33,853 bases of DNA from positions 1 to 33,853 of IMG/VR virus record IMGVR_UViG_3300044609_001707; one strand, written 5' to 3'. The notes under the pieces were generated by a model that was not told the DNA's origin, did not search any database, and saw only the letters and a list, made by a program, of their open reading frames with translations. The first letter of the stretch is position 1. Each line of letters opens with the position of its first letter. The translations under genes were made by a program, and so were the position numbers. The stretch comes from a virus. This document shows positions 8,996 to 27,584 of the stretch, one piece after another.

Positions 8996-9541
8996 TTATT
9001 TCGTCGGGGATAAAAGAGGATTTTTTGAATCGCTTTTATTCTGTTTATCTGACGTTTTGGAAATTTTTGTTAAATCTCCATCTTTCGCAGCCTCTGCATT
9101 TTTCATTGAATCCTGTAATGTTGCTAGTTCATCTTTTACTGAATCTGCGCCTTGTTTTAACTTTCGTAAAAGATCAGCTGGGGTTAGTTTATCTAATTTT
9201 TTATTCTGATAATAACTATTAACTACGCTTCTTGCGGCGTTGCCTGCAACCGCGGCCACCTGATCTGCAGGTTTATCTGAAGATTTTGTAACCTTTTCAA
9301 TTTTTTTTGCAACGACCCCACTATTCATTGACGCATCAAGTGCCTTAACGGCTGATGATTGAGGTTTTGATTTGATTTCTGTATCAGTTTGATCTACGTT
9401 ATTCGACGGAGTGGAGGGATTTGTACCAGAAGTACCCGTTGTTGACTTTGACATGTTTTCATTTAGTGAATGCAATGTTTCAAAGATGAATTCTTTTAAA
9501 AAATTGAAAGAAGAAAGACGTTGATTTGACCTGAGATTCAT
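8996..9541 (-). CDS. Ala/Ser/Lys-rich protein with a leader-like N-terminus
   Basis: I place the start at the ATG at 9541 (181 residues). A longer reading to 9598 needs a GTG and overlaps the divergent plus-strand gene. No clear ribosome binding site is seen at either. The N-terminus (FNFLKEFIFETLHSLNEN, residues 12-29) looks like a short amphipathic leader with hydrophobic-x-Glu sites, comparable to T4 capsid-targeting leaders. The rest is low complexity, rich in Ser, Lys, Asp and Ala, with a helical part (about 95-150) and no Cys. If the leader is real this would be an internal head protein released by the prohead protease after Glu28; this is inference. An alternative is a small scaffold or DNA-associated protein. 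The family is not recognised. Confidence 0.55.
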   Translation of the reverse strand: MNLRSNQRLSSFNFLKEFIFETLHSLNENMSKSTTGTSGTNPSTPSNNVDQTDTEIKSKPQSSAVKALDASMNSGVVAKKIEKVTKSSDKPADQVAAVAGNAARSVVNSYYQNKKLDKLTPADLLRKLKQGADSVKDELATLQDSMKNAEAAKDGDLTKISKTSDKQNKSDSKNPLLSPTK

Positions 9542-9601
9542 GAATCTAACTATCAAAATGAAATACAAAACATCACAATAACGGGTGATATGATTCACGA
9601 C

Positions 9602-10078
9602 ATGAACATATTCGTCCTATCAGAAGATCCACGTGAAGCTGCACGGATGCACTGTGACCGTCATGTCCTGAAAATGATCTTAGAGAGCGGCCAGATGTTG
9701 TGTGCTGCACATCCTCCCGAGGTTGCCCCTTGGAAACGTACCCACTATCATCATCCTTGCACCGTGTGGACTCGCACGACACAATCAAATTATTCTTGGT
9801 TGGCCGAACTCGGTACCGCTCTCTGTGATGAATATAGACGGCGGTACGGGAAGATACATAAATCAGAGGTGGTAATCAATTGGTGCAGGAATAATATTCC
9901 TCCAAGTGTGCCCGAGGGTCCACTGACGCCATTTGTGATAGCGATCAAGGATCCACAGTATCACAAGGCGGACGTGGTGGAGTCTTATAGGTCTTATTAC
10001 CTGGGTGACAAGGTCAGGTTTGCCAAGTGGAAGCACTCTGAACAACCCGACTGGTGGAATCCACCCTCACCTACCTGA
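9602..10078 (+). CDS. Conserved phage/bacterial protein of unknown function
   Basis: 158 residues from the ATG at 9602. An in-frame ATG four codons earlier (9590) is possible, but relatives that I recall begin MNIFVL, which fits 9602. The pattern is distinctive: CDRHVLKMILESGQ, then HHPCTVWTR, then YSWLAELG..LCDEYRRRYGKIHKSE, then PLTPFV, then a SYRSYY and WWNPP end. I recall this order from a widespread uncharacterised family of phage and bacterial proteins. The conserved His, Cys and Trp suggest an enzyme or metal site, but no activity is known to me. It is the only rightward gene between 1 kb and the right end. It runs head-on into the cysteine-cluster gene and overlaps it by 12 bases, which suggests separate acquisition. 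Confidence 0.75.
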   Translation: MNIFVLSEDPREAARMHCDRHVLKMILESGQMLCAAHPPEVAPWKRTHYHHPCTVWTRTTQSNYSWLAELGTALCDEYRRRYGKIHKSEVVINWCRNNIPPSVPEGPLTPFVIAIKDPQYHKADVVESYRSYYLGDKVRFAKWKHSEQPDWWNPPSPT

Positions 10079-10495
10079 CATCGACTGCCTAAAAGAAGGA
10101 CTGCCGATTGAGTGGTGTTTACCTTCAATCTCATAAAACAAGTTGTTGCCCGTTTCCAAGGCCCATTGGATAAGCCAATTTAACGTAGCAACGTTAAGCT
10201 TTCCTCCCGCCTCGGCGACTTCATAGTGCGTCAACTCAGGTTTCATGGGATGAATCACCTTGGTGATGATGACGCCCGTCAAGTCAGGACGCATCCACAC
10301 CGGAAAGATATCTTCAGATTTCCATGCGCAATTGTAGTTCCTGCAGGTTCCAGGCCTGTCCTCATATATTGTGCACTTCCCGGTGGCCAAGAAGAAACAG
10401 TTCCTTCCTGGAAACATCTTGTGACCTTTGATGTCTGCCGATAACCAACCTTCACAACATTTTGTGCAAGAACCACACTCTCTGCTTTCAGACAT
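10067..10495 (-). CDS. YkgJ-type CxxCxxCC cysteine-cluster protein
   Basis: 142 residues with AAGGA before the ATG. The N-terminus has CGSCTKCC (Cys7, 10, 13, 14). Cys33 and Cys41 follow, and then YEDRPGTCRNYNC (Cys51, Cys56). This is the signature of the YkgJ/UPF0153 family, thought to bind zinc or an iron-sulfur cluster. The C-terminal half is a helical region without known motifs. The family's biochemical role is not established, and phage members are usually of unknown function. The gene overlaps the end of the HNH gene by eight bases and the convergent plus-strand gene by twelve, so the three form a compact accessory pocket between the capsid operon and the small-gene cluster. Confidence 0.8.
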   Translation of the reverse strand: MSESRECGSCTKCCEGWLSADIKGHKMFPGRNCFFLATGKCTIYEDRPGTCRNYNCAWKSEDIFPVWMRPDLTGVIITKVIHPMKPELTHYEVAEAGGKLNVATLNWLIQWALETGNNLFYEIEGKHHSIGSPSFRQSMSGR

Positions 10496-10832
10496 TTTTC
10501 TTCCTTAAAACCATGTGATTTTCATTTACGCGCCAATCAATCTCGTCCAGTGGGGATTCCTGATCTTTCTTGTGCCACACCACTGTCCTTCCTCCCAACG
10601 CAGTTGAACTGAACACCCCGAGGATGATTATGTCACCAGCGTGAACAAGATCGTGACAAGTGTGACACAAGATTGCAAGGTTGATGTTGTCGTTCGTACT
10701 ACGAGGATCGCACCTGGGAATCACGTGATGAATGTTCAGAGCATGTGGATTATCAAACCCACACACTTCACACCTCTCCTTCAATAATTTCGGTTGTCCA
10801 CGTTTCCTACGAATCACTAGAAAAATGTACAA
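10488..10832 (-). CDS. HNH endonuclease
   Basis: Up to 114 residues. It has a zinc-binding CxxC (Cys21, Cys24), the catalytic HHVIPR (His35-His36), a downstream Asn (NINLAILC) and a second CHTCHDLVH (Cys56, Cys59, His60, His64). This is the full HNH/McrA-like fold. Enzymes of this type nick or cut DNA; a small free-standing phage member can act as a homing endonuclease, a packaging-associated nuclease or a host-DNA nuclease. The start is uncertain: the frame begins at a TTG (10832) that overlaps the -10 box of the candidate promoter, and a GTG at 10817 is an alternative; neither has a clear ribosome binding site. It lies just beyond the terminator of the capsid gene and is followed by the YkgJ-type gene. 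Confidence 0.85.
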   Translation of the reverse strand: MYIFLVIRRKRGQPKLLKERCEVCGFDNPHALNIHHVIPRCDPRSTNDNINLAILCHTCHDLVHAGDIIILGVFSSTALGGRTVVWHKKDQESPLDEIDWRVNENHMVLRKKNV

Positions 10833-10860
10833 TTAATTCATGGTTAGTTAACCATAACAA
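10832..10860 (-). promoter_or_regulatory. Promoter candidate with a palindromic spacer
   Basis: On the minus strand TTGTTA (10860-10855) and ATTAAT (10837-10832) are 17 bases apart. The spacer is filled by the near-palindrome TGGTTAACTAACCA (10854-10841). It would drive the HNH and YkgJ-type genes after the capsid terminator. The -35 box overlaps the terminator's T-tract. Each box matches four of six consensus bases, so this is tentative. Confidence 0.3.
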
Positions 10861-10885: not shown

Positions 10886-10914
10886 AAAACTAAGGAAGAT
10901 TCCTTATGTTTTGA

Positions 10915-12822
10915 TTAAATCACGTTCATGTCCATGACTGTGACGGTTCCGTAGAAGTCGCTTCTGATGACCTTCTTACCGTAGCGAGTCATCACACCCT
11001 TACGTGGCGTGAAGTCCTCAGGTGCGAAGATCGTCGGGGTGACGATGAGCGGAACGTAAGGAGCATAGACGTAGCCGGTCTCGAGGTAGCTGCCACCCTT
11101 GTAGCCGACGAGGATCTTGTTACGTGGGAAGTAAGGATCCTTGTAGACCGTGAAGCGGTTCGACACGGTACCGATTGCCTCTGCGCCGATCGTGAACGGC
11201 GAACCAACCTGGCCCTCACCGTCGAGCGAGAACTTGGGCTTGTAGAGAACCGATGACTCGAGGATGGTGCAGACGTCTGGGCCGGTCACGAGGAAGTTGG
11301 CCGAACCACGGAGTGTCTTCCTGTGGATGGTGTTTGCCACGTCGATGATTGTCTCGACGAGGGTCTCGTACCACTCACGGACAGTACCGGTGAACTGCGG
11401 TCCAATCTGGAGCGAGTTGGCAAGTGCCTGACGATCGCCTGTCACCTTGTTAACAAAGCGACCGGGGCTACGTGACCAGTAGTAGTTGGCACCGTTAGCT
11501 GACGTCACGAGGTCACCGAGGATCTCGCGGTCGATCTCAAGGGCAATCTGCTCCGAGAGGATCGATGTCAACTCAACCTCGGCGTCCATCGAGTGATAGG
11601 CGTTGAGGTCCTGAGCAAGCTCAGGCGACCAACGGGCACGCAGCTTGCGTGTCGTGGCGGTGATGGCGATCGACTCGATCTTGATGTCAATCTCGGGGAT
11701 TGCAGGAGCAGGTGTACCCGATCCTGAACCGAAGTCAGACTCAAATGATGGGATTGTAAGAACTGCGCCGGGTGCTCCAGCGTCGCCGCCTACGTTCTCC
11801 AGTGTGTCAGCCTTGGCATAACTGAGTGTAGCAGTGCCGACAGTAACGCCGCCACCATTTGCACACTTAACCACGAACTGAACGTGATCACCGTTCAATG
11901 CATCAGGTGTGAAACGCTTACCTGAACCTGAGCCCGTAATTGTACCACGCTTATTAAGTCTGCGTAGGTTGAGAACGCCTGCGCCTGACTGGTACTGCTC
12001 ACCCCATGCTGATGCGCCAGTAAGGCCGCTAACAAGTGCAAGCTGATCAACCGCAAGAAGATCGGCGGTACCTGGCAATGCAGAGGTTGGAACATACAGG
12101 AAAAGAGCATCAAGGTTGTTCAGAGAGAGGTCTGTCTCAACCTGCTGGTCAAATCCCATCAAGCGAGCGTTGGAACCCGAGAAGTCAGAAACTGATGAAA
12201 CAAGTCCTGACTGAACCCATGAACCATTCTCGTGCCACGAACCTGAGAAGACTGTACCTGCCGCAAGGTTAAGATCTGTCTTGACGCCGTGAACCTTTGA
12301 GTATCCGACGTTGACGAGATCATACATGCCACCCGTGGCGAGTGATCCTGAACGGATTCCCTTACCGGTTGGGTTGTTGTAGATTGACTGGCCACGCTGG
12401 TAGGTTGCACCGAGTGTACCACCCGAAAGATCCTCACCCCAGTCACCACCCACGTTTGAACCGTATGTGTAGTCTAGATAGAAGATGAGGCCCGAGGGGA
12501 GCGACATTGGCTGGATCGAGACGAGCTCGTTGGCAACGAGGCCACCGAACACCCTACGAACGATCGGGAATGCGATATTGCTGAAGCCCTGGATCTGACC
12601 CGACGATGCGAGGTTTCCACCACCTGTCGACAGCGAGTTGGACTCCTTCAGGACCTGGGCAGCCTGGTTCTCCAGGAGCTGCGACATTGTCTCACGGCGG
12701 TTGCCATCAAGGCCACGGAGAAGGCCTGTACGGCTCCACTTCTCGACAAGGCGGGCACGCTCAGCACCGATGTGCTTCTCGCGAATTCCCTGAGCTAACT
12801 GATCTAATGTAAACTGCTTCAT
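10915..12822 (-). CDS. 23: Major capsid protein, T4 gp23-like
   Basis: 635 residues with GGAG eight bases before the ATG. It builds the head shell. Recognisable parts are LLENQAAQVLKE (49-60), then FPIVRRVFGGLVANELVSIQPM (85-106) with PSGLIFYLDYTYG. Next is RKLRARWSPELAQDLNAYH (392-410) with AEVELTSILSEQIALEIDREI, the hallmark region of gp23 proteins. By analogy with T4, the prohead protease should remove the N-terminus after Glu60 (LKE|S). T4 gp23 is 521 residues; the surplus here lies between about 165 and 380, a Gly/Ser/Thr-rich stretch that may be a surface-exposed domain. Base composition is unusual for the window: 35 G+C in the 60 bases from 11041, consistent with codons tuned for high expression. 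Last gene of the head block, ended by a strong terminator. Confidence 0.93.
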   Translation of the reverse strand: MKQFTLDQLAQGIREKHIGAERARLVEKWSRTGLLRGLDGNRRETMSQLLENQAAQVLKESNSLSTGGGNLASSGQIQGFSNIAFPIVRRVFGGLVANELVSIQPMSLPSGLIFYLDYTYGSNVGGDWGEDLSGGTLGATYQRGQSIYNNPTGKGIRSGSLATGGMYDLVNVGYSKVHGVKTDLNLAAGTVFSGSWHENGSWVQSGLVSSVSDFSGSNARLMGFDQQVETDLSLNNLDALFLYVPTSALPGTADLLAVDQLALVSGLTGASAWGEQYQSGAGVLNLRRLNKRGTITGSGSGKRFTPDALNGDHVQFVVKCANGGGVTVGTATLSYAKADTLENVGGDAGAPGAVLTIPSFESDFGSGSGTPAPAIPEIDIKIESIAITATTRKLRARWSPELAQDLNAYHSMDAEVELTSILSEQIALEIDREILGDLVTSANGANYYWSRSPGRFVNKVTGDRQALANSLQIGPQFTGTVREWYETLVETIIDVANTIHRKTLRGSANFLVTGPDVCTILESSVLYKPKFSLDGEGQVGSPFTIGAEAIGTVSNRFTVYKDPYFPRNKILVGYKGGSYLETGYVYAPYVPLIVTPTIFAPEDFTPRKGVMTRYGKKVIRSDFYGTVTVMDMNVI

Positions 12823-12868: not shown

Positions 12869-14506
12869 TTACTTGGTAATGCCGGCCAGACGTGCCCAAC
12901 GATCGGTCTCAAATCCCTCATTGAGGTTTGTCGATGCCGGACGAGTTGCCCTTGACGAAGAACCGAGGACCTTACGATCTCTCGACTCCGACAGAGGACG
13001 AGACGTTCCTGCCAATGTCTTGGTCAGGCTTTCATAAACAAGCTTGACCTCACGAAGGTTACGGGCCTCATCGAGACGCTCGATGATCTCAGCCTTCTGC
13101 CTCTTGGAAAGCGACTCATTCTGGAGAAGCTTGTTCGTGTAGATCAACTTTGCGTTGAACAGATTCGATTCTGCCAACTTTGCGCGGAGTTTGGATTCGG
13201 CCTGTACCGCGTGCCTATTGGATGCGTCATTATGACGTGCACCATTGCGGGCATTACGCCTCGATTCAGCTACGTTATCTCTGCGGATCTTGTAGTCAAG
13301 GGGATCTCCCTCATCATCTACATCTCCGCCAAAATCATCCATATCACCAGGTCCATGACCCTTGGTTGAAGGAACTGCCTCTTCGGCAAGTCTCCTGTTT
13401 CTTCTGCGTGATTCGGCAATCATTCGGGCCTGACGGGCTCGTGACTCGCGGATGACCTTCATGCGAGAGATCTCACGACGCAGCATTCCTTCGTCGATCT
13501 CAACAACGAGGTTATTGCTCAAACGACGACGTGATTCCATTGCATAGTTATGTCCTTCCTCCTTGGGCTCCTCTTCCTCTTCGCCGACACCGCCGTCGAG
13601 GTCCATGTCCTCATCGCCCATATCTTCGCCTTCATCTCCGCCTTCATCATCGAGGTCGAGTTCAAAATCATCGCCCTCGTCATCCATGTCTTCGCCTTCA
13701 TCTCCACCTTCATCATCGAGGTCGAGTTCGTCTGCTCCGAGAATTTTGATTGATGAACCTTGAAAATCATCTGCTGAAATGTTGTCACCATCAATCTCTA
13801 TCGTGACAGTTTCTTCATTGAGGTGTCTTCTTCTACCGAATCTGTTATTACGCATATTTTGCTCCTGAAGCTGGTTAAGTTCTTTATAAAACGATTCTAA
13901 CGTCAATTCATACTCATTTTTCTTGCGAGGATCTGACACAGATTCCTGCACATGCTCATACATAGCTTCCACCTGAGAAATTAACTTCCCAATTTGCGGT
14001 GAACGATCACGTGATTCTTTCAAGAAAAGAATAGAGTATTTGACATCCTTAATACCCTCGCCCAGCTTCTTAAGCTGACTTCCGAGTGTAACATTTGATG
14101 AACCCATAAATGGACTAAGAGGACCAGGCGAATGTTGGGTTTTATCATAATCTCCCAACTCAAATTCATCTACGTCATCCATCATATCAAGATCACCAAA
14201 CATAGGTGGTTCTACAGGTTCACCTGGGACTCCTAAGTCCATTCGAGGTGCAGGTGCACCGCACCCAGGTGACATTTCATCTGTCATCAAATCACCTTCA
14301 GGTGGAAGACCACCGGGTTCACCAAGATTGAAATCATGATCTTCGAGCTCGTCCATTCCACCATATTCACGTAAAAGTTCTTTTTCTATAAGATCACGAA
14401 TTCGCGGTGTGACAGCCTCGACGAGTGCACGCTTTGCATTGTCCTCGGCAATTTCCTTCAACTTCTTGGCGTCAGCCAGCGCTTCTTCGTAGAGTTGTTT
14501 TGACAT
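12869..14506 (-). CDS. Prohead core scaffold-like protein (T4 gp22 position)
   Basis: 545 residues, with GAGG before the ATG. It lies immediately before the capsid gene, where T4 has the scaffold gp22. The N-terminus is helical (1-50). Then comes a Pro/Asp-rich region, a helical part (140-225), two tandem 22-residue acidic repeats (260-281 and 282-303), and a basic, Arg-rich C-terminal half. The end, GFETDRWARLAGI, resembles the C-terminus of scaffold proteins I recall from other phages. T4 gp22 binds the capsid protein with its C-terminus, so the same is likely here. Twelve Glu-Ser pairs occur, for example at residues 164, 324, 354, 365, 414, 437, 446 and 507; many fit the gp21-type hydrophobic-x-Glu cleavage pattern, as expected for a scaffold digested after assembly. 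GC content falls from the 3' to the 5' part. Confidence 0.8.
   Translation of the reverse strand: MSKQLYEEALADAKKLKEIAEDNAKRALVEAVTPRIRDLIEKELLREYGGMDELEDHDFNLGEPGGLPPEGDLMTDEMSPGCGAPAPRMDLGVPGEPVEPPMFGDLDMMDDVDEFELGDYDKTQHSPGPLSPFMGSSNVTLGSQLKKLGEGIKDVKYSILFLKESRDRSPQIGKLISQVEAMYEHVQESVSDPRKKNEYELTLESFYKELNQLQEQNMRNNRFGRRRHLNEETVTIEIDGDNISADDFQGSSIKILGADELDLDDEGGDEGEDMDDEGDDFELDLDDEGGDEGEDMGDEDMDLDGGVGEEEEEPKEEGHNYAMESRRRLSNNLVVEIDEGMLRREISRMKVIRESRARQARMIAESRRRNRRLAEEAVPSTKGHGPGDMDDFGGDVDDEGDPLDYKIRRDNVAESRRNARNGARHNDASNRHAVQAESKLRAKLAESNLFNAKLIYTNKLLQNESLSKRQKAEIIERLDEARNLREVKLVYESLTKTLAGTSRPLSESRDRKVLGSSSRATRPASTNLNEGFETDRWARLAGITK
13598..13729 (-). repeat. Tandem 66-base repeat encoding acidic 22-residue units
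   Basis: Two adjacent 66-base units (13664-13729 and 13598-13663). The first 41 bases of each (13689-13729 and 13623-13663) differ at one position; the remainder has diverged. They encode ELDLDDEGGDEGEDM plus seven further residues. The repeat is inside the scaffold-like gene, in frame, and probably arose by slippage or unequal recombination. Confidence 0.9.
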
Positions 14507-14556: not shown

Positions 14557-15129
14557 TTATTCAGGATATTGTTCAATATTAACGAGATTTATGTTGCTTT
14601 CGCCCAACATATTATTCTTGTAGACTGTAGAATCCTTAGGTTGACGTGTATTTACCGTGGTGTCATAACCAGGTTTTACCTGAGAAGGCTTTAATCCTGG
14701 GTTATTTTCCAATAGCTTATCAGTACCTTCAACTCTCACTTCGCCCAACTCGGTAGCATTTACGCCTCTGGCACCTGTGCCTGGTGATGAAACATCAGGA
14801 ACAAAGGCGTTCATCGGATCGCCTGAAGCCTGTGGTGTGAATAAGTCATCAGGATTTTGCCCACCTGGCGGTGTAAACGGTAGATTTTGTCCTGAATAGT
14901 TCATATAAACACCTTGAGGAAACATGTCAGGATCACCACGTTTGCCTCCTCTATTATTTGATGCTCGTAAAAATTCATTTCCGTTTTTTACAATTTCTTC
15001 CCGTATCTGATCAGAAGGTTTATCAGCAAAAGGATTTGCGTCGTTTGAAAATGACCTTGCAAGAAATGTCTTCTTAGCGCTATTTGAAGAAGCATAGGTT
15101 GTATATCTACCTGATCCAGGTCCTGGCAT
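14557..15129 (-). CDS. Head-region protein, paralogue B of a tandem pair
   Basis: 190 residues from the ATG at 15129. A longer frame begins at a TTG (15147), but the strong site GAGGGGG lies just before 15129, and the product then begins MPGPGSGRYTTY, matching its neighbour's MPGKGKYTTY. It is a paralogue of the product of 15174-15707. Both share the N-terminal MPG..YTTY and a central GDPMNAFVPDVSSPG block. Both also have a C-terminal LGESN followed by EQYPE. The LGE|S site (after Glu177) fits prohead protease cutting and would release a short C-terminal peptide. The sequence is polar, Gly/Pro/Asn-rich and probably largely disordered. Located between the small head genes and the scaffold, it is likely a head-assembly or internal protein. 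I do not recognise a named family. Confidence 0.7.
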   Translation of the reverse strand: MPGPGSGRYTTYASSNSAKKTFLARSFSNDANPFADKPSDQIREEIVKNGNEFLRASNNRGGKRGDPDMFPQGVYMNYSGQNLPFTPPGGQNPDDLFTPQASGDPMNAFVPDVSSPGTGARGVNATELGEVRVEGTDKLLENNPGLKPSQVKPGYDTTVNTRQPKDSTVYKNNMLGESNINLVNIEQYPE

Positions 15130-15133
15130 TTTT

Positions 15134-15140
15134 CCCCCTC
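15134..15140 (-). promoter_or_regulatory. Ribosome binding site that fixes a start
   Basis: GAGGGGG on the minus strand, four bases before the ATG at 15129. It supports the ATG over the upstream TTG at 15147 and makes the two paralogues begin alike. Confidence 0.8.
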
Positions 15141-15173
15141 GGTCCAAGACCTGAACCGAAATTGTGTCTTAAA

Positions 15174-15707
15174 TCATTCAGGATATTGTTCAACGTTTTT
15201 AGTGTCAAATGAGTTGCTTTCACCCAAAACGTTTTTCTCATAAACGACTGATCCTTTTGGAAGTCGAGTGTTTGCAGATGGAACATATGATCCATCAAAC
15301 GTTTCCTTGTATTCTTCAGGAGTCTTCTTGGGATTAAGCGCGGGATCTTTGTCAAGACCGCCTGTCTTTCCTGGGCCTGGTGATGAAACGTCAGGAACGA
15401 AAGCATTCATTGGATCGCCTGCACGATCTGTAGGAACGCTTCCATTTGCAGGACCGTATTGCATTCCTCCTCCTGAATACGTCAGGTCAACGCCATTCGG
15501 GAACATACTGGAATCACCACTGGTTTTACCACCACCGGCCTCTGCACGAAGAATCTTGTTTCCTCTATTTACAACTTCTTCCTTGACCTCTTCGGCTTTT
15601 AGGCCACTAAATGGTCCTCCCTTAAAGAGACTATCACGATAGTTCTTTCGTGGAATTTTGACAGGATCAGTTTCGTGATATGTTGTGTATTTACCCTTGC
15701 CTGGCAT
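15174..15707 (-). CDS. Head-region protein, paralogue A of a tandem pair
   Basis: 177 residues, with AGGAGGG before the ATG. It is paralogous to the product of 14557-15129: it shares MPG..YTTY at the start, GDPMNAFVPDVSSPG in the middle and VLGESN...VEQYPE at the end (candidate cut after Glu163). The last coding bases are identical in both genes over 18 bases (15176-15193 and 14559-14576). The region between the shared blocks is polar and Gly-rich, with a helical KAEEVKEEVVNRGNKIL near residues 37-53. Position in the head block and the shared candidate protease site suggest a prohead component, possibly processed. The reason for two copies is unknown; they may have divided a role, as T4 internal proteins have. 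Confidence 0.7.
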   Translation of the reverse strand: MPGKGKYTTYHETDPVKIPRKNYRDSLFKGGPFSGLKAEEVKEEVVNRGNKILRAEAGGGKTSGDSSMFPNGVDLTYSGGGMQYGPANGSVPTDRAGDPMNAFVPDVSSPGPGKTGGLDKDPALNPKKTPEEYKETFDGSYVPSANTRLPKGSVVYEKNVLGESNSFDTKNVEQYPE

Positions 15708-15719: not shown

Positions 15720-15965
15720 TTAGTTGGAATTTAACAAAGTCTTTGCGATGCGAGTGCGCGTCTCTGCGATCTTCGCAAGGCGCTTCTTCAATCGGCTCTC
15801 CTCGATCTTAAGAGCCTTGACATAATCAATATGCTTCTCTAACGCGTCTGCAAGTTTGTCAGCATCGACTTCTTCTGCCTTGACGTCCTCAACGTCTTTC
15901 ATATTTCCAAACTTGCTTGCCTCGTCGAGGATCATCTTCTTTAAAATTTTAGTCGTAAGTTTCAT
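15720..15965 (-). CDS. Small helical prohead-core-like protein
   Basis: 81 residues. The ATG at 15965 is preferred over one two codons upstream (15971), because GGAG (15973-15976) is seven bases from the former but only one from the latter. The N-terminus MKLTTKILKKMILDEASKFG is a basic/hydrophobic helix ending in LDE|A, a pattern like T4 capsid-targeting leaders with their protease site. The rest is acidic, then strongly Lys/Arg-rich and helical, with the coiled-coil look of T4 core proteins such as gp67/gp68. The gene lies between the protease region and the paralogue pair. A role as a prohead core or internal protein is inferred from position and leader. No family is recognised. Confidence 0.65.
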   Translation of the reverse strand: MKLTTKILKKMILDEASKFGNMKDVEDVKAEEVDADKLADALEKHIDYVKALKIEESRLKKRLAKIAETRTRIAKTLLNSN

Positions 15966-16012: not shown

Positions 16013-16516
16013 TTATGACAATTTCCTCTTGGGAACGTCCATAAAAGCAAGATTTGCCCACTTTGAAGCAACATCTTCACCAAAAACCTGTTCAGGTGAA
16101 CCATTGAAGTGTTCAACTTGAGACACTCGAGAAGAATTACCGCTTGATGATGCCCCGCCTGAATCACCGTTTGACATCATCTTAGGAAGTGTCGTCATCG
16201 CGGTGTCGGCAAGTATGTCAGCCATCAATGCATTTCCGCGTGATTCCTGTTTGATTGCCTCCACCAAAGTAGAGGAATATCTTCCTTTGTCATGTTGTCC
16301 AATCGGAGTGTCCAACGCAGAATTTCTAGGCCTCGCCATGGAGTTTGAAACACCCTCACGTTTAATCTGCTTGCCTTCAGAAAATTGAGAATAATTGTTT
16401 CCTGTAGATACAGGTAGCACAGGACCAGAGGCGCCAAGACCCTCCTGAAGTATCTCAACGAGACATTCCTTCACCATAGACTTGAGCTGTGATCTCGTCA
16501 ACTTTACGCCATTCAT
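16013..16516 (-). CDS. Head-region protein with a leader-like N-terminus
   Basis: 167 residues, with GGGAG before the ATG. The N-terminus MNGVKLTRSQLKSMVKECLV, continued by EILQEGLGAS, forms a hydrophobic/charged helix ending in LQE|G (Glu25). This is much like the leaders of the neighbouring 81-residue and 108-residue proteins. The remainder is Ser/Asn/Gly-rich with a helical stretch, STLVEAIKQESRGNALMADI, that carries a further Glu-Ser site. The C-terminus ends in a basic RKLS. It is directly downstream of the protease gene (19-base gap). These features suit a prohead core or internal protein processed by the protease. This is inference; the family is not recognised. Confidence 0.65.
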   Translation of the reverse strand: MNGVKLTRSQLKSMVKECLVEILQEGLGASGPVLPVSTGNNYSQFSEGKQIKREGVSNSMARPRNSALDTPIGQHDKGRYSSTLVEAIKQESRGNALMADILADTAMTTLPKMMSNGDSGGASSSGNSSRVSQVEHFNGSPEQVFGEDVASKWANLAFMDVPKRKLS

Positions 16517-16535: not shown

Positions 16536-17189
16536 TCATCTTCCATAAGAAAGGATGTCGTTAAGAACCCTATCAATCCTGTCACTCTTGTTAAAAATCT
16601 TCCTCAATTCTGCATCTGCAATCCTCTTTCCTTCTGGAATCATGAATGCACCAGGAGTTGATGGTTCTGAAACATAGTCCCAACAGATCAATTGAAAGTC
16701 ATCCTGCACAATGTGATAATCACCTTGCTTTTTAGTAGAACCAACTCCTCTTGATGAAATACCCAATTTTACGCCACTCTCAATCAAAGACTGAAGTATC
16801 TTACCAGAAGGAGTGTCCAAGACCTCTGCGGTGCCATAAACAACACCGTTTTCCATGTAAGCTTCACGTATGATGTGAGATACATTCTTTAAATTAACAA
16901 CAGACGAATCAGGGTGATCGAGTTCACCTAAGGCACGATTTTCAATGATGAACTTCTGGTAATTTCTGACCTCACGCTCCAATAACTGAATGGGATAGAT
17001 ACGACCATTCTGGTTCAACGTATCGGCCTTCTGCAGAATTCCTTTCATCATGACTTTCTTTACCGCAGGAGATTCAACCTTATTTCCAAAGGAATCTTCA
17101 ACGATTGTTGCCGGCTTAACAACCTCTGTCACAATCTTGTATTCAAAGACATCATACGTATCTAAAAGACGCTTCTCATTTAACAACAT
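16536..17189 (-). CDS. 21: Prohead maturation protease, T4 gp21-like
   Basis: 217 residues with GAGGAG before the ATG. It is the serine protease that cuts scaffold, capsid and internal proteins during head maturation. The N-terminal part includes GRIYP, common in phage prohead proteases. The catalytic His is in ELDHPDS (His92) and the catalytic Ser in GISSRG (Ser145 or Ser146), followed by GVGS. Length matches T4 gp21 (212 residues). The gene lies between the 285-residue gene and the small core-like genes, in the T4 order portal-core-protease-scaffold-capsid. Candidate substrates in this window carry hydrophobic-x-Glu sites, often followed by Ser. Confidence 0.9.
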   Translation of the reverse strand: MLLNEKRLLDTYDVFEYKIVTEVVKPATIVEDSFGNKVESPAVKKVMMKGILQKADTLNQNGRIYPIQLLEREVRNYQKFIIENRALGELDHPDSSVVNLKNVSHIIREAYMENGVVYGTAEVLDTPSGKILQSLIESGVKLGISSRGVGSTKKQGDYHIVQDDFQLICWDYVSEPSTPGAFMIPEGKRIADAELRKIFNKSDRIDRVLNDILSYGR

Positions 17190-17192: not shown

Positions 17193-18050
17193 TCACTCCT
17201 CGCTGTCAAGCTCTGAATTTAACTTTGTGTACAACATGAACCGTGTCACCGTGTCGTCGTCTACAACTTCAACATTTTCGGCCATGAGACGCGATTTTGT
17301 CTGAAGTAACTTGTCAACAACGTACTTGTCTGATGAACCTTCATATAATGATATCTTCTTTAACAATCCATCTTTCACTTCTGACAATCTACGTCGTATG
17401 ATTGTTGGATCACTATTTGTTGTAGAAAACACATATGCCTTTAACAAACCTTTCTGACTTTCGTCCAGGACACCCATGTATTTTTCATTCAATTTCTTGG
17501 TCATAACTTTCATTAACAAACGAGACATACCGTTTGATTCTTCGTTTAATAGTTGATCATCAGCTTCTACTTTTTCTGAAACCAACCAATTAGTCAATTG
17601 ATCTTCATACGTAGCTAACCTTGCAATGTCCTTGTCACGACTAGGAGCACGCCAATTATTCAACAAAGTCTGAACAGTTGCATACATCTTATATTCATTG
17701 ATTTGTTGATCATAGAAATTATCATCTCGCAAAGCATGATTAATATGTTTTATCAATAACGACTTTTCTCGATCAAGCGTTGTCATGTCGTAAGAACAGG
17801 CGGCTTCCTTTGCTTCTCCTATGATTGAAGACGCAACCATGGGAGAACTCACTGTCGTCTTGATCAAAGAATTGATCAACCTGAATTCTCTGTGTAATTC
17901 AGTCCCTGGTTTGAAGTGTCTCTTTAGAATCCTTAAAGCAGTTGCAGATCTTTTCTGGTCTCCTTCAACTAAGGCGTTTGAAATAGTCCTTACAAGGAAT
18001 TCATACAAAAGACCTGCATTTCTTTTTTTATTGTGTGTCTTGTTACTCAT
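17193..18050 (-). CDS. Conserved phage protein between portal and protease
   Basis: 285 residues, starting within the portal stop (ATGA, four-base overlap), so it is translationally coupled to the portal. It occupies the place of T4 genes 67 and 68, which encode prohead core proteins, but it is longer and I see no clear similarity to them. The N-terminus (basic, then GLLYEFLVRTISNALVEGD) and the whole chain look helical. ALRILKRHFKPGTELHREFRL is a distinct segment that I recall from uncharacterised proteins at the same place in other phages. It contains a few candidate Glu-Ser sites, such as LDE|S. A head-assembly or core role is inferred from position. Confidence 0.65.
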   Translation of the reverse strand: MSNKTHNKKRNAGLLYEFLVRTISNALVEGDQKRSATALRILKRHFKPGTELHREFRLINSLIKTTVSSPMVASSIIGEAKEAACSYDMTTLDREKSLLIKHINHALRDDNFYDQQINEYKMYATVQTLLNNWRAPSRDKDIARLATYEDQLTNWLVSEKVEADDQLLNEESNGMSRLLMKVMTKKLNEKYMGVLDESQKGLLKAYVFSTTNSDPTIIRRRLSEVKDGLLKKISLYEGSSDKYVVDKLLQTKSRLMAENVEVVDDDTVTRFMLYTKLNSELDSEE

Positions 18051-20068
18051 GACTCATCACCTTCATCAATGATAAATACGCTCTCGTCAGATTCTTTCAA
18101 TAACCCGCCTCGCGACAATCCATGTTTTTGTTTCCATTTATTCAAAGCAGACAACACGTCATGTGGTAGGTTTGTCCTTGTTGGGCGTTCGTTCTTGGAT
18201 TCAAATTTTATGACATCATCGGTCATGGTCCTCATTCCGGTCACGTCCTTGGCGTAACGATTGTTAGGACTCAACATTTCGGCAAAGTCAGGCGTGTGAT
18301 CTATCTTATGTTTACGACGCTTACTATTTCTCTTGTTCCGAGCAACGTGATTCTGCTTGACGGCAGGTCTTCTTCTTTCATCTAAAAGAGATTCTCTTAA
18401 AGAAGATCTGATCTTAACTGGGGAGTCTAGTTCTTTTAACGAATATTGAGTTCCGGTGAAATCATCATAGTCCTCCCCAGAGGTAAGGAGTTCAACACCT
18501 GGCTCTGCATCCTCCAACGGCTCATCACTTGCATTTTCTTCAGGAGGAGCTTCCTCTCCTCCACCCATGTCACCACCCATGTCACCACCCAAGTCATCTC
18601 CGCCACCACCAAACAAATCTCCTCCACCGCCACCCATATCATCACCACCTGCGCCGGCGGCTTCAATGTCCTGATCTGTTATCTTATCCTTCTTACGACC
18701 ATCATCAATTTCATTGCATTCGTCATCATTCAGACCCCAGATTTCTTTACGAATGAAATTCTTGTTTACATAACCCTCGGGTGCTGAACCGGCAATCTCA
18801 AACTTTGCACGCCACAATTCCAATTTTTGCTGTTGCGCCACTGTAGACGGATTTGACAATCTCAACGTAAAATTCTGCAGATCGTCACCATCAAACCCAT
18901 GAGCATACAAGTGTATGATTGCCAACTTGTTTAACTCTGACAAAAGAACTCTTTGTATCACGTTAATCGTGCGAGAAAATCTGATGTCTTCTTGAGCAAG
19001 TGTTGCCTTGCTTGATAACATCTCATCATATCCCAAGTAAGCACGTGGTATCTTTAATGCGGCAAACAATTTCTTTTGTATGTATGCAACGTCTTCAACC
19101 GCAGCTGCGTTTTGTCCACCTGCCAAAGTTTCAATTCGAGTTCCGGTTTCAGTTCCTCTGACGGGAATGAAATAATCTTCGTCAACAGACATTGGATTGT
19201 AGCGTAAATCTACTCTGCCCGAGTTTCTATCAATTACCTGATTTGACCTTAGATTTTTACGTTGTTCTTCAACGTATAATGGAATGTCAGCAGCAGGAAT
19301 ATTCGCAACATCAATGTAAAAAACTCTTCTTTCAGGCGCACGTACGACTCGATACACAAGCATCGCATCTTCAATGAGAATTAATTGCCTCCAGATTCTA
19401 CGTGCAGCCTCAATTACAGATGAACCGTAAGGCAAGAACATGTCATTACCCAACAATCTAAAGTGACTGATTTCCCAATTCTCTAAAACCCTGTTACCCA
19501 AAGTTACCCAACGGAACCTGACGGCAAAGGGATCTTCCCTATCGTAATTCTCCTCACGTTCAATTTCATTTACTGGTACGGGAAAGGCTGAAACAACACC
19601 GTATTCGGGATGTACGTCATTATAAAGAAAAAAGTCACCATACTTAACAAGGTTTCTTGCCCACGATCTAAGGTTGAATTCTGTGTTTAACGTGTTATAG
19701 AAAAGGTCTTCAAGTATTTCTTTGATCTTTTCATTGTCAGAATATATGTGAAGCACCCGACCTTTTTCATCCTGTGAGCAGGCTTCATCTGCGTAAATGT
19801 CCAACGCAGCCGCGATTTCCGGTGTGTACTCCATCTCCTGGAAATCTTGATATCTCATCAAGCGTTCAGAAAGGTTGTATGCATTTGCCGTTATGGTAGC
19901 GTAAGTTGGTGCAATTGACTTTTGAAAAAGCAGTGCACCTGAAGATTTTGTTCTATCAGCAACCGCGATAGCAGTGTCAATAGTTCTAATTTTCTTTTTG
20001 ACTATAGGACCACTTTTGAAGAGTGTGCTGAGTCTTTTGAATAGAGATTGATCTGTTTTTTTTGCCAT
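18047..20068 (-). CDS. 20: Portal protein, T4 gp20-like
   Basis: 673 residues. It forms the dodecameric portal through which DNA is packaged and to which the neck attaches. Typical regions are YTPEIAAALDIYADEAC (81-97), FYNTLNTEFNLRSWARNLVKYGD (123-145), RAPERRVFYIDV (243-253) and the tunnel/crown part around EDVAYIQKKLFAALKIPRAYLGYDE (325-349). The chain is longer than T4 gp20 (524). Past about residue 465 it has a Gly/Asp-rich low-complexity linker (472-504) and an acidic stretch. It ends with a basic tail with KRNSKRRKHK and a final LLKE|SDES. The extension may be flexible inside the prohead and could be trimmed by the protease after Glu659. The start has a weak ribosome binding site (AGGCAGG). 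Confidence 0.92.
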   Translation of the reverse strand: MAKKTDQSLFKRLSTLFKSGPIVKKKIRTIDTAIAVADRTKSSGALLFQKSIAPTYATITANAYNLSERLMRYQDFQEMEYTPEIAAALDIYADEACSQDEKGRVLHIYSDNEKIKEILEDLFYNTLNTEFNLRSWARNLVKYGDFFLYNDVHPEYGVVSAFPVPVNEIEREENYDREDPFAVRFRWVTLGNRVLENWEISHFRLLGNDMFLPYGSSVIEAARRIWRQLILIEDAMLVYRVVRAPERRVFYIDVANIPAADIPLYVEEQRKNLRSNQVIDRNSGRVDLRYNPMSVDEDYFIPVRGTETGTRIETLAGGQNAAAVEDVAYIQKKLFAALKIPRAYLGYDEMLSSKATLAQEDIRFSRTINVIQRVLLSELNKLAIIHLYAHGFDGDDLQNFTLRLSNPSTVAQQQKLELWRAKFEIAGSAPEGYVNKNFIRKEIWGLNDDECNEIDDGRKKDKITDQDIEAAGAGGDDMGGGGGDLFGGGGDDLGGDMGGDMGGGEEAPPEENASDEPLEDAEPGVELLTSGEDYDDFTGTQYSLKELDSPVKIRSSLRESLLDERRRPAVKQNHVARNKRNSKRRKHKIDHTPDFAEMLSPNNRYAKDVTGMRTMTDDVIKFESKNERPTRTNLPHDVLSALNKWKQKHGLSRGGLLKESDESVFIIDEGDES

Positions 20069-20150: not shown

Positions 20151-20477
20151 TCATTTTTTTTTAGCTTTAGGATTTACTGACTGATATACGATTTCTGTTC
20201 GTGGTGGACGATCAAGATATTGTTCTGGTGATTTTACAATCATATTTATTGTGTCTTGAAGACGTGCCAGGTCATCAACTAGGGCATTGGTTACGTTAAT
20301 TCCTGCTTGATTTTGAAATTTATTTATTGCATCTACAAGATCTGCAATTCCAGATTTCATCTGCGTCTCTTTTCTTAATTGTTCAGCGTCTACTGAAGAT
20401 TTTTCTTCAAGAATTGCACGATTAATTTCTTCTGCTATGATTGACCTGAGTCTTGCAAATGTTATCTTGTGTGTCAT
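20151..20477 (-). CDS. Small helical protein with a leader-like N-terminus
   Basis: 108 residues, with AAGAGG before the ATG. The N-terminus FARLRSIIAEEINRAILEEK (7-26) is an amphipathic helix with hydrophobic-x-Glu sites (IAE, LEE), like the leaders of the other small head-region proteins. The remainder is helical (SGIADLVDAINKF, LVDDLARLQDTINMIVKS) and ends in a polybasic PKAKKK. It lies between terminase and portal, where T4 has head and neck genes. Suggested role: a prohead core or packaged protein, or a small partner of the terminase. Neither is proven. The family is not recognised. Confidence 0.6.
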   Translation of the reverse strand: MTHKITFARLRSIIAEEINRAILEEKSSVDAEQLRKETQMKSGIADLVDAINKFQNQAGINVTNALVDDLARLQDTINMIVKSPEQYLDRPPRTEIVYQSVNPKAKKK

Positions 20478-20514: not shown

Positions 20515-22128
20515 TCACCTAAGCAGCCAGTTAAAATCTATTCCGCTTGAATTTTTTACGAGCGATGGATCGCGAGGTTTTCCTACGTTGTAAGGAGTAA
20601 ACCCGTGTATGTTAGGATTTACCAACGGTTTAACAGAATCAATGTCACCTGGGATTGATGAAATATCACGTCTATCAATACCTGTAGCCTTTAACATTGC
20701 CATTGCAACTTCTCTACCTTGTTCACTTACTGCAGATGTACCATTTGTGAGCCAAGTACCAATTGCTAAAGAAAGAATGAGATCGTCGTGAGCGTCCCTT
20801 GACGCTTGTGCCTTAGACCCGTTCCAAATGAATGCCTGCATTTGATCATAGGTTCTTTGAGAGTAAATTTTGATAACCCTGTTACGAATTACTTCCTCTA
20901 ATTTACCCAGGATTTGTGGTCGTGTATTTCCTTGTGTTTCAAATCCAGGAACAATGTCATTATCAGTTGGTTGGTATTCCCAAGGATCACCTGTTGTTGA
21001 CCGATACCATAACCTTCTGTATCCTGAATCTCGTAATTTTACGCAAGTGAAATAACCAAAAGTATTGCGTTCTGGACATAACAACGCGGTGTTATATGCT
21101 TTTCCATATTCCAAAAGCAGATCTGCAAACTTGTCTGGAGGTATCTTTCCCATGTACTCTGCAACAACTTCAAGGTTATATGCATCTATTACGTGAAATG
21201 CAGAAAAGTCTGCGCCATCTCCTCTTGCAACATCTGCAGAAATGACATACTTTCTACCAGGTTCTGGATCAGACCAGATCCACACTCCGTGTGCAGGACC
21301 CTCTTTCTTTTTGGGTTGTATCAACATAGACCTGAGATATTCCATCTCAGAATCTTGCAAGAAGGTATCACCTGAAGACAAGAAGTCACACAAAAACTCT
21401 TGAGCAACCTTACGCTTAGGTAGGTTTTTTGTTTCTTTGTCAAACCACTCCTGATCATGTTCAGGATGCACCCACCAGGGAAGATTTATTGTATTGAATT
21501 CATTTTGTTGTGAAACTGCGTCTGTCCATAACTTGTAATACATTCCTCCCACACCATTTGGCGTTGAAATGATGATGGCAGAACCACCCGTTGACAACGT
21601 GGGATATAGGCCTGTCCAAATATCTTCAAAGTCTCTAATGAATGCTGCCTCGTCGACGATCAGAAGAGAAAGAGCCTCTGAACGTCCAGCGTCAGGTGAT
21701 GTAGGAATTGCTGTAACCGTAGAGCCATTTGAGAAACGTATCTGTTGTTTGGTACATTCAAAACGCGTCAACAACAACCATTTTGGCAGGCCGTCCAACA
21801 TGGTCTTTACCTTTTTGATAAAGTTCATTGCTGTTTGAAGTTTAGTAGCGATGACAAGGACGTTCTTGTCCTTTTTGAAAATAGAATACCAAACAGAATA
21901 TGCAGCAGTGACCGTTGACAATCCTAACTGTCTGGATTTGAGAACAATGTTAAAACGATTTTCCTCAAATTTTTTGACGCAATCATCCTGAAAAGAATAA
22001 GTTTCAAAAGGAATAAGACCGCGTTTTGGGTGCTGAATCTTTGTATATGTTCTCATGAAATAAACAGGATCGCGGCCACACCTCAGTATTTCCTTGACCT
22101 GTTGTTCTTTGTTCATCCCGCCAGCCAT
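20515..22128 (-). CDS. 17: Terminase large subunit, T4 gp17-like
   Basis: 537 residues. It is the ATP-driven DNA packaging motor with a headful nuclease. The Walker A variant KSRQLGLST (64-72) has the classic SRQ form. Walker B is LLIVDEAAF (155-163, with the catalytic Glu160), and ISTPNG (187-192) is the coupling motif. The RNase H-like nuclease has ISADVARGDGAD (Asp299), CPERN (Glu353) and a late DAHDD. Length is near the family norm (T4 gp17 is 610). No small terminase is seen beside it; T4 has gene 16 adjacent, but here the gene upstream is a 127-residue protein of unknown role that could fill that place. The start follows the upstream stop by three bases (GGGTGATAAATG). Confidence 0.95.
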   Translation of the reverse strand: MAGGMNKEQQVKEILRCGRDPVYFMRTYTKIQHPKRGLIPFETYSFQDDCVKKFEENRFNIVLKSRQLGLSTVTAAYSVWYSIFKKDKNVLVIATKLQTAMNFIKKVKTMLDGLPKWLLLTRFECTKQQIRFSNGSTVTAIPTSPDAGRSEALSLLIVDEAAFIRDFEDIWTGLYPTLSTGGSAIIISTPNGVGGMYYKLWTDAVSQQNEFNTINLPWWVHPEHDQEWFDKETKNLPKRKVAQEFLCDFLSSGDTFLQDSEMEYLRSMLIQPKKKEGPAHGVWIWSDPEPGRKYVISADVARGDGADFSAFHVIDAYNLEVVAEYMGKIPPDKFADLLLEYGKAYNTALLCPERNTFGYFTCVKLRDSGYRRLWYRSTTGDPWEYQPTDNDIVPGFETQGNTRPQILGKLEEVIRNRVIKIYSQRTYDQMQAFIWNGSKAQASRDAHDDLILSLAIGTWLTNGTSAVSEQGREVAMAMLKATGIDRRDISSIPGDIDSVKPLVNPNIHGFTPYNVGKPRDPSLVKNSSGIDFNWLLR

Positions 22129-22131
22129 TTA

Positions 22132-26007: not shown

Positions 26008-26022
26008 TACTATACGAATTTT

Positions 26023-27021
26023 TCAATGTTTAAATTGACGATCCAGACGAAGACTAACTTCTGAAATTTTTTCCAACTTATCAAAAAATACATTTTCCCA
26101 GGTTGGAGATTGAGCTACGTCTAGTATAGTTTTAAACTGAGACTTTGACATGTTGCCTGGATCTTTCTGTTCGCGGGTATCAACAACAACAACGTCAATA
26201 TCATAACTTTGAAATAGTTTTGCAAGCTTTGGCGTTTTTTTGTGCCACATGTCACCGTCCAACGCAAGGGCAATTGGAGTGTCATGCAACATGATCTGCG
26301 AAAATAGTCTTGAATTTATCGACAGGTCAGATCCTAATAACGCAGTTGCGTTATCACCACACTTCATCATGTCAAATGGACCTTCACAAATTACTAGTCT
26401 TTTACTCCAATCAATGTTTAATTCATTAAATACAAATTTAGACTTATCATCTTCTGGATTGTCGTACTTTGTTCTTCTGTCGTGCGAATCTACGTTTCTT
26501 GCAACAAAAAAGTTTAAAACTCCTTCTGCATCAAACGATGGCATGATTATCCTTCGTTTCCATCTTTGATCAAAAGACATGCCCAATTTATAGTGCCAAA
26601 CGTCACGCAAATTGATATTTCTGCTTGACAAATAAGACCATGCTGCTTTAACGTCAGGATGACCTTGATTCATTTCAACCAAAAGTCTAAAATCAGAAGG
26701 GAGAGGCGTTACTTTTTCTAGATCTGGGATTTCTGTTTCTTTTGATTTTTTCAAAGAATCAGGAATGAATTCAGACTTATAACGTTGTAACTGAGAAATC
26801 GTTCCGTACTTTCTGATCAACGGAGCAAGAGAGTATGCTCTCCACCCACACGTCCAACAGTGATGTGCGTCATCTTCTACACGAATTGCAAGTTTCCTCT
26901 TGTTTAGATCGGATGGTGCACAAATAGGACATCGAACGCTAAAATTACGACCGTTTGTTGCCAAGACGCCTTTACCAAAAACGCTTTCGATAAAAGCTAA
27001 CTTACCAGAAATCGTGTACAT
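26023..27021 (-). CDS. DNA primase
   Basis: 332 residues from the ATG at 27021; the frame has an extra TTG codon just before. It makes RNA primers for lagging-strand replication. The N-terminus has a zinc finger (CPIC 31-34, CWTC 55-58). A RWKRRIIMPSFDAEGVLNFF segment follows, then the Toprim domain with VICEGPFDMMK (catalytic Glu213) and ALALDGD (Asp255, Asp257). Length is close to T4 gp61 (342 residues) and there is no helicase domain attached, so a separate helicase must lie elsewhere. It lies 15 bases before the Mre11-Rad50 gene, in a replication/recombination block sandwiched between structural genes. Confidence 0.9.
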   Translation of the reverse strand: MYTISGKLAFIESVFGKGVLATNGRNFSVRCPICAPSDLNKRKLAIRVEDDAHHCWTCGWRAYSLAPLIRKYGTISQLQRYKSEFIPDSLKKSKETEIPDLEKVTPLPSDFRLLVEMNQGHPDVKAAWSYLSSRNINLRDVWHYKLGMSFDQRWKRRIIMPSFDAEGVLNFFVARNVDSHDRRTKYDNPEDDKSKFVFNELNIDWSKRLVICEGPFDMMKCGDNATALLGSDLSINSRLFSQIMLHDTPIALALDGDMWHKKTPKLAKLFQSYDIDVVVVDTREQKDPGNMSKSQFKTILDVAQSPTWENVFFDKLEKISEVSLRLDRQFKH

Positions 27022-27053
27022 CAATGCAACTTTAAGTTGTTATGACGTGATGT

Positions 27054-27584
27054 TCATCTTACGTTTGAAGCTGAACTTAATTCAACATTACTCCTGAAAT
27101 GAAACATGACAGGTACCTTGATTCCTAGTTCTTTTGCAATTGCAAGCCTGTGATTACCTTCACCAACTTTAACCACACCATTTTTTCCAATCTCAACGTG
27201 GGCAGGGTCTCTTGTTTTCCAACCTGATTTCATTTTTTCGACCATTGCATTCCATTTGTTAAGTCCCACGTTTTCGTTTTCGTCAGGAACAAAATTCCAC
27301 TTGTCTGAAAATTTATTTCCGGAAGTTGAAATGACCTCCTCACCTTCGGCTGTCTTTGCAGACCAATCATATTCTCTATATCGCCAAAGTTCTTCCGGTG
27401 AGAAGAATGCATGATATGAATCCTCATCATACGGTTTCAGTCCGTCTTTAGCCCATGCGTCTTTGATATCTTCAATGGTAGGAGGACTATTTGGATCTAT
27501 TGAATAATATCCTCTATGACCCACGATTTTTGGTGATGATTCCTGAATGACATGTTTGATGAAATTTTTCAACAGAGTTTTCAT
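27054..27584 (-). CDS. ParB-like protein with a leader-like N-terminus
   Basis: 176 residues. The C-terminal part (about 129-162), VEIGKNGVVKVGEGNHRLAI followed by AKELGIKVPVMF, matches the ParB/Srx-type fold with its GNHR motif (143-146). Proteins of this fold include nucleases, CTP-binding ParB and sulfiredoxin, so the activity is open. The N-terminus MKTLLKNFIKHVIQESSPK is an amphipathic helix ending in IQE|S, remarkably like the T4 leader consensus (MKTYQEFIAEA in T4 internal proteins). This suggests the mature protein may be carried in the head and delivered with the DNA. The middle is Trp/Tyr/Asp-rich and unassigned. The start has only a weak ribosome binding site. The gene lies between the primase and the RuvC-like gene. 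Confidence 0.7.
   Translation of the reverse strand: MKTLLKNFIKHVIQESSPKIVGHRGYYSIDPNSPPTIEDIKDAWAKDGLKPYDEDSYHAFFSPEELWRYREYDWSAKTAEGEEVISTSGNKFSDKWNFVPDENENVGLNKWNAMVEKMKSGWKTRDPAHVEIGKNGVVKVGEGNHRLAIAKELGIKVPVMFHFRSNVELSSASNVR

Follow-up and report, generated by a model that had tools for sequence, protein, structure and literature searches.

The question raised by this locus is whether the short N-termini with which several otherwise different proteins begin, each ending in a hydrophobic-x-Glu site, act as capsid-targeting leaders. The window, i.e. the whole stretch of 33,853 nucleotides analyzed here, is a 34-kb piece of a far-T4 phage genome, with genes for terminase, gp20, gp23 and a protease of the S77 (gp21) type. 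Our preferred reading of the sequences, to which we assign a probability of roughly 0.7, is that these common N-termini are T4-like leaders for capsid targeting, which would be cut by the phage's own S77 protease and thereby release their bodies in the head.

Head genes and leader candidates in the window

The gp21-like protease of the original prediction was recovered as a 217-aa protein (16536..17189, minus strand; PF03420, E=7e-28). Its profile match of 97.9 bits lies above the curated cut-off of 27, and H92, S145/S146 and D171 are kept in 98% of an alignment of 58 relatives, T4 gp21 among them; the profile match and the conserved catalytic His, Ser and Asp identify it as a Peptidase S77 member. 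Also encoded on the minus strand are the major capsid protein gp23 (10915..12822; PF07068, E=2.1e-74), the T4-like portal protein gp20 (18047..20068; PF07230, E=3.5e-71) and a T4-type large terminase (20515..22128; PF03237, E=1.6e-16). Adjoining gp23, a scaffold-like acidic protein of 545 aa (12869..14506, minus strand), with 70 matches in relatives and none in the family search, is presumed from position and composition to be the gp22 equivalent.

All five hydrophobic-x-Glu N-termini that had been described are present in the translations of the window, but as a set they are unevenly supported. The 81-, 167- and 108-aa proteins carry the class A motif MK[IL]TxxQLR[KR]IIREE, the 176-aa protein is a moderate fit to class B, MxxLRxYIRxILxE, and the place of the 181-aa protein is not established. 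With a class A PSSM trained on a single relative (G002), these three N-termini are matched in the window where the internal rate predicts 0.04. The class B model, for which two other genomes supplied the training set, matches one (the 176-aa protein; 0.08 expected at an 8-bit cut).

The three class A genes are again on the minus strand (↓ marks the predicted cut). The 81-aa protein (15720..15965) has the leader MKLTTKILKKMILDE↓A (15921-15965, 14.5 bits); L8 and E15 are invariant among 40 distinct family sequences, and the gene lies between the protease and the scaffold-like gene both in the window and in relatives, making the product a probable prohead core component. In the 167-aa protein (16013..16516), for which a phage-record search gave no match, the leader MNGVKLTRSQLKSMVKECLVEILQE↓G (16442-16516, 27 bits) ends in EILQE↓G, with L23, E25 and G26 present in every family member (37/37). 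The 108-aa protein (20151..20477), encoded between terminase and portal, has the leader MTHKITFARLRSIIAEEINRAILEE↓K (20403-20477, 26.7 bits); in its homologues the leaders have diverged and a hydrophobic-x-E is retained ahead of the body (ALFE↓G, ALME↓G, LLKE↓D, NLQE↓G). In the 81- and 108-aa proteins more than one Glu could mark the predicted cut. The bodies do differ, as had been proposed for diverse cargo; however, with their genes placed within the head module and maintained in relatives, these three products are more likely prohead core components, in a gp67/gp68-like position, than delivered cargo.

The 176-aa ParB/sulfiredoxin-like protein (27054..27584, minus strand) begins with the class B-like leader MKTLLKNFIKHVIQE↓SS (27540-27584, 8.8 bits), and two homologues, whose start codons were both corrected by hand, start with LLKTLIREYLIIE↓GYYD and LLRLLIRESFLAE↓GYYD. 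In its AF2 model the body is folded and the leader, residues 1-28, has a pLDDT below 50. The body has no Pfam match but contains GEGNHRLAIA, a GxxNHRxA-type motif, and its top PDB fold matches belong mostly to the ParB/Srx superfamily (ParB, Noc, Srx, free serine kinase), though with a best E of 0.045. The least supported of the five candidates is the 181-aa protein (8996..9541, minus strand) with the possible leader MNLRSNQRLSSFNFLKEFIFETLHSLNE↓N (9458-9541), ending in FLKEFIFETLHSLNE: it passes neither class model (2.7 bits with class B), and its sole homologue (L003) has a similar start, FVLRRFILETLELYE↓SS.

Motif statistics and the predicted cut site

Enrichment of a generic [LIVMF][LIVMF]xE near N-termini discriminated too poorly (ratios of 1.3 in a control genome, 1.5 in T4 and 1.2-2.9 elsewhere), and class models were therefore used in its place. 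When the motif was compared with chance genome-wide, as the original prediction had proposed, N-terminal matches in genomes not used for training greatly exceeded the internal rate; of the 3188 N-termini in genomes and fragments left out of training, 125 scored, compared with 1.9 expected from shuffled N-termini.

The site at the leader end is also conserved. A masked class A model restricted to columns 2-11 recovered N-termini with Glu at residue 14 in 84/98 cases, conservation falls steeply past residue 15-16, and the site reads I-I-[RK]-E↓[EAST]; class B leaders stop right at the Glu, ending [IL]-x-E. The predicted propeptide cleavage of gp23, VLKE60↓S61 (about 12643-12654, minus strand), has the consensus [VLI]-L-[KR]-E↓[SA] in 95 aligned major capsid proteins (E60 in 95/95, K/R at P2 in 94/95, S/A at P1' in 87/95), so that P3, P2 and P1 agree between the two sites. 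In 59% of class A leaders Glu occupies P1', where the gp23 site has Ser or Ala, and several leaders contain two candidate sites. Both features would suit uncut helices that dock on the scaffold or on a different head component, with the Glu exposed on the helix surface and intact N-termini packaged. We consider such docking unlikely in view of the P3-P1 agreement, of class B leaders finishing exactly at the Glu, and of the 167-aa family, in which conservation collapses past residue 28 and a variable linker follows the invariant L-x-E↓G junction. E-GFF second sites occur behind some leaders, in a handful of cases too few for interpretation. The pair of MPGKGKYTTY proteins (14557-15707) has a gp23-site-like C-terminal VLGE↓SN, which was rejected because its Glu is present in only 12/41 sequences.

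Leaders, bodies and head genes in relatives

Class A tags 3-33 proteins per genome in sampled genomes of relatives, and one 273-kb genome has 47 leader genes, 12.7% of its genes, some of them arranged in tandem; these per-genome counts are approximate, as genes were called with a simple home-made ORF caller. The expectation of differing bodies behind a common leader was borne out, with 370 class A leader proteins falling into 263 body clusters. The variable members are found mainly in leader arrays outside the head module. Judged from these comparisons, the leader set exists and is independent of the body, and just a minor share of it lies in the window.

The two classes also exchange on one body: GDVILTGRFKNK follows class A leaders in L168:1068 and L191:6886 and a class B leader in L456:12180. 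A search for this body in named phages, aimed at a leader-swap comparison in cyanophages, returned one weak match, to an uncultured record. Likewise, a Zeta-like kinase body has the junction ESLLAE↓GVYDP, FILKE↓GLYDP (HTVC008M) or MKTFAELQE↓GVYDP (Melnitz). Few class A bodies (about 10 of 148) have any Pfam match; the matches include kinase/Zeta-like, HAD, phosphoribosyltransferase, M78-peptidase and PAP2 domains. In the class B/short-leader set, an Alt-family ADP-ribosylase relative (phrog_832, E=2.9e-8) follows a leader ending RRIIVE↓S.

Of 22 leader-positive contigs of 100 kb or more, 20 encode S77, and these 20 also encode gp23; since gp23 too is absent from the remaining two, their head module probably lies off-contig, and S77 and gp23 occur together in 20/20 of the contigs that encode a head module. 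The presence of S77 alone discriminates weakly, being found in 5/9 random contigs of that size (Fisher p=0.04), while stronger gp21-like matches, with a cut-off picked after the data were seen, separate clearly (1/9 random contigs, p=5e-5).

Arrays outside the head module, an unknown cargo function and the capacity of basic amphipathic helices to bind membranes or nucleic acid could also point to an address other than the head, such as the membrane, a replication compartment or the phage polymerase. This seems quite unlikely, because leaders also occur on conserved head-module genes beside protease and portal, gp21-type S77 and gp23 accompany them in all contigs with a head module, a conserved protease-like site would be unneeded, and no replication-polymerase, helicase or terminase-large family appears in the Pfam matches of the 148 bodies. 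A recombining gene-start cassette of shared DNA and ribosome-binding context, with no protein role, would fit the duplication suggested by tandem arrays and a few related bodies and the uniform codon positions in leaders of one genome (G021), but is very improbable: leaders within one genome are only 51-67% identical in nucleotides, fixed residues use several synonymous codons, mostly near genome diversity, Glu14 is kept in distant genomes, and the hydrophobic-x-E site remains when leader classes swap on one body.

The body-independent leaders, S77 and gp23 in every sufficiently complete carrier and the capsid-like site thus support a T4-type capsid-targeting system, as far as sequence can indicate. 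The leader, a basic amphipathic helix of 14-25 residues, would bind the assembling prohead core and be cut by the S77 protease at the conserved Glu, with a hydrophobic residue two positions before, during head maturation. Its removal would leave the body free inside the head, either to stay as an internal protein or to be ejected with the DNA; the 81-, 167- and 108-aa proteins would serve as core components, and the variable members as cargo acting on the host early in infection. On balance we lean towards the wider picture, taken as a whole, of a lineage-specific head-address system, widespread in uncultured freshwater and marine T4-like jumbo phages, that occupies up to ~13% of genes, many in arrays, uses two interchangeable leaders and places dozens of proteins in each head.

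If so, a 15-residue motif would turn part of the viral dark matter into a testable list and assign hundreds of uncultured-phage proteins to the virion and the first minutes of infection. Dozens of otherwise uncharacterized proteins would become candidate deliveries to the host cell, among which functions in counter-defence and host take-over could naturally be sought. In large-headed phages the leaders could also act as packaging tags.

Relation to known systems

A tblastn search of cultured phages with a class A leader returned nothing, the DNA pattern is absent from immuto, Mel-JY01 and RM378, and among the phage records searched only the uncultured LR756508 has class A; the T4 genome has no class A or B N-terminal match. 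Because class A is absent from T4 and these named relatives, its relation to the T4 capsid-targeting sequence (CTS) would be one of analogy rather than sequence homology. A full-text search of the PMC open library gave no paper with the motif strings, no published proteomics of class A or B phages was found, and the parts consulted of a far-T4 paper, a jumbo-phage comparative paper and a 2026 review held no passage on such leaders.

In Agrobacterium phage Atu_ph07, gp53-58 begin with M[KR]W[ENQ][QD]L[TN]E ahead of bodies with a YRGM motif. They fall within CDS 31-76, a range from which 29 proteins were found in virions by mass spectrometry, a count for the whole range and not for gp53-58 individually (PMC6102473); the cluster is thus only suggestive of packaged, processed leader proteins.

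In the giant phages phiKZ and SPN3US, several head and ejection proteins lose N-terminal propeptides after Glu through gp175 and gp245 (PMC10052503, PMC5694885). Several proteins with (here putative) N-terminal propeptides and a gp21-related protease are features shared with the present phages; SPN3US, however, uses an A-x-E motif with most propeptides longer than 100 residues, and has no short leader common to hundreds of bodies. ARTs and other effectors encoded near head genes have been predicted, from fusions and gene position, to be packaged in the head (PMC9503650), as leader-bearing proteins may be here, whereas neither a leader nor a cleavage site is described in the passages of that proposal consulted.

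The closest parallel is the T4 CTS of IPI, IPII, IPIII and Alt, processed by gp21: a short N-terminal leader, a hydrophobic-x-Glu end, diverse bodies, and a genome that also encodes S77 protease and gp23, with one leader-bearing body here being an Alt-family relative. In the IPIII CTS, targeting (residues 4 and 7) and processing (residues 8 and 10) are separable (PMC9026906), the latter residues matching P3 and P1 of the leaders described here. In contrast to the T4 sequence, MKTYQEFIAE, to which they are unrelated, these leaders are longer, form two lineage classes, occur on head-module genes as well as in arrays, and are known from sequence alone; T4 has about four leader genes, compared with up to ~47 per genome here. 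What appears to be new relative to T4, on the best reading of these data, is a different leader sequence, in two classes, deployed on a much larger scale.

Head module of the window

The minus strand of this 33,853-base IMG/VR virus fragment carries a T4-type head module comprising a terminase (PF03237), portal gp20 (PF07230), an S77 protease (PF03420), a scaffold-like protein and the major capsid protein gp23 (PF07068). The S77 gene, of the T4 gp21-type prohead protease family, bears out the original prediction that a gp21-like protease is encoded here. The window gp23 has hundreds of IMG/VR relatives (best 80 at 67-88% identity), and every match to a named phage lies below 60%, which places the window in the far-T4 group, whose members have come chiefly from metagenomes. 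Two adjoining paralogues starting MPG..GKYTTY (14557-15707) lie in the head module and are kept in relatives, without a family match. Also encoded are a collagen-repeat protein (GPPGATGPQGPKGDTG; 1035-2555; PF01391 match slightly under cut-off), probably a fibre, a TnsA-like endonuclease (28198-28605; PF08722, 2.4e-13) and a plus-strand pyrimidine dimer glycosylase-like gene (9590-10078; PF03013, 8.7e-6) with nearly all neighbours running opposite.

Enrichment and spread of the leaders

Five minus-strand window proteins, of 81 (15720-15965), 167 (16013-16516), 108 (20151-20477), 176 (27054-27584) and 181 residues (8996-9541), have N-terminal sequences as originally described, with a short helix ending in hydrophobic-x-Glu. 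A 16-column model of the class A leader (MK[IL]TxxQLR[KR]IIREE) was trained on 14 leaders of one large relative (G002); genes of the large relatives were called with a simple script. N-terminal matches numbered 17, 8 and 8 in G004, G005 and G008, against 0.29, 0.08 and 0.28 expected from internal positions, and 3 in the window against 0.04, namely the 81-, 167- and 108-residue proteins. The marine genomes G021 and G018 gave 28 (0.4 expected) and 31 (0.3 expected); a control phage genome gave 2 and T4 none. When the genomes not used for training are pooled, 125 N-terminal sequences match, versus 1.9 from shuffled N-termini, placing the motif far above both the internal rate and the shuffled control. 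G018 and G021 are also rich in a second leader, class B (MxxLRxYIRxILxE). The 176-residue protein fits class B moderately; its homologues, with start codons corrected, have similar starts by eye, though the only homologue scored with the class B model does not pass. The proposed set of five holds for the three class A proteins and moderately for the 176-residue protein, and is not established for the 181-residue protein. A 412-residue window protein (31205-32443) has a start ending LIDVLQE↓DISGS (arrow, predicted cut), conserved in relatives, and scores weakly for class A at residue 15; the resemblance could be fortuitous, or the protein could be one more structural protein that is processed.

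In IMG/VR, a degenerate DNA pattern encoding MKITxxQLR[RK]IIRE recovered 92 stretches, with chance matches, by our own estimate, far below one. The pattern hit only two contigs across 84,980 species genomes of bacteria and archaea, one of them equal in length to a viral contig of the leader set. Calling genes in these stretches and in the fetched genomes yielded 370 different class A proteins, whose bodies (the parts behind the leader) form 263 clusters. Leader genes make up 47 of the 371 called in G018, and neighbours form runs of up to 14: 13 in tandem at G018 253151-263662, mostly class B, and 14 at G021 52332-58201, both with bodies that are for the most part unrelated. The few bodies that recur in these runs start LLTE↓AMKTxxxLPDD. 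Conservation covers residues 1-15 and then falls away, a second hydrophobic-x-E often lying near residues 18-22.

Candidate cut site and protease

Because the model that had helped to find the leaders itself gives credit for Glu, the Glu test was repeated with columns 2-11 only; residue 14 was Glu in 84 of 98 cases. The predicted propeptide end of gp23 reads [VLI]-L-[KR]-E↓[SA] (Glu in 95/95 sequences, preceded by K/R in 94/95), and its counterpart in the leaders is I-I-[RK]-E. All 37 sequences of the 167-residue family have Leu23, Glu25 and Gly26, followed by a variable linker; in the 108-residue family the leader diverges, yet hydrophobic-x-E still precedes the body. AlphaFold2, from an alignment of three sequences only, rendered the 176-residue protein's leader as a low-confidence helix apart from the folded body. 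Three genomes keep leader proteins of 173-174 residues (L093:3868, L138:11065, L124:5970) with a late site, VMNE/IVNE↓GFF, and behind it a long Ala/Lys/Gly-rich amphipathic stretch; these might be membrane-active internal proteins.

Leaders are also exchanged on constant bodies. The body GDVILTGRFKNK is preceded by a class A leader in certain contigs and, in G021, by one of class B. A Zeta-toxin/AAA_33-like kinase follows a long marine leader that ends in ESLLAE↓GVYDP; in the Pelagibacter phage HTVC008M its junction reads FILKE↓GLYDP, and in the Methylophilales phage Melnitz the leader is MKTFAELQE↓GVYDP. With both, bodies and the hydrophobic-x-E junction stay constant. Codon use suggests that the leaders are preserved as protein sequences rather than being mere recent DNA copies; some array members look duplicated.

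Of the 22 contigs of 100 kb or more that encode leaders, 20 carry S77 and the identical 20 carry gp23; the other two lack both and are probably fragments. One of these two, 101,404 bp long, has been assigned to a MAG carrying an S77 gene, which, at a guess, could be the rest of its phage. Since S77 also occurs in 5/9 random contigs of at least 100 kb (strong gp21-like match in 1/9), S77 alone is a weak discriminator; its occurrence together with gp23 carries more weight.

Bodies and comparison with T4

The bodies had been proposed as cargo sent to the head. The 81-, 167- and 108-residue window proteins are more likely core proteins than cargo, because they are part of the conserved head module. 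Most bodies fall into no family: Pfam matches were obtained for 10 at most of 148 class A bodies, including HAD, Zeta/AAA_33, phosphoribosyltransferase, PAP2 and M78 peptidase. A G018 protein that starts with the leader MKANSARKLRHLVRRIIVE has a match (phrog_832, 2.9e-8) to the phage RNA polymerase ADP-ribosylase family, to which T4 Alt belongs; Alt is cut and packaged in T4. Arrays of related proteins in the uncultured phage record LR756508 (L434:17793-21502; leader MRLKEILLE) and Agrobacterium phage Atu_ph07 (gp53-58, L504:686-7620; M[KR]WEQLTE) have very short leaders ending LxE and a Y-R-G motif in the bodies. This suggests ADP-ribosyltransferases, as a lead only, since the LR756508 set matched no Pfam family. 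Atu_ph07 gp53 joins a Y-R-G-type body to a Zeta-like kinase. The Atu_ph07 array falls inside cluster CDS 31-76, of whose products 29 were detected in virions by mass spectrometry, a count for the whole cluster (PMC6102473).

Packaging, cleavage and ejection of the leader proteins are what we infer from these patterns. In T4, the 10-residue capsid-targeting sequence (CTS) of IPIII suffices to carry foreign proteins into the head; targeting depends on its residues 4 and 7, processing on residues 8 and 10 (PMC9026906). A test for sequence similarity between the leaders and the T4 CTS found none; the two share the same plan in different letters, and we therefore file the leaders as putatively working like CTS leaders.
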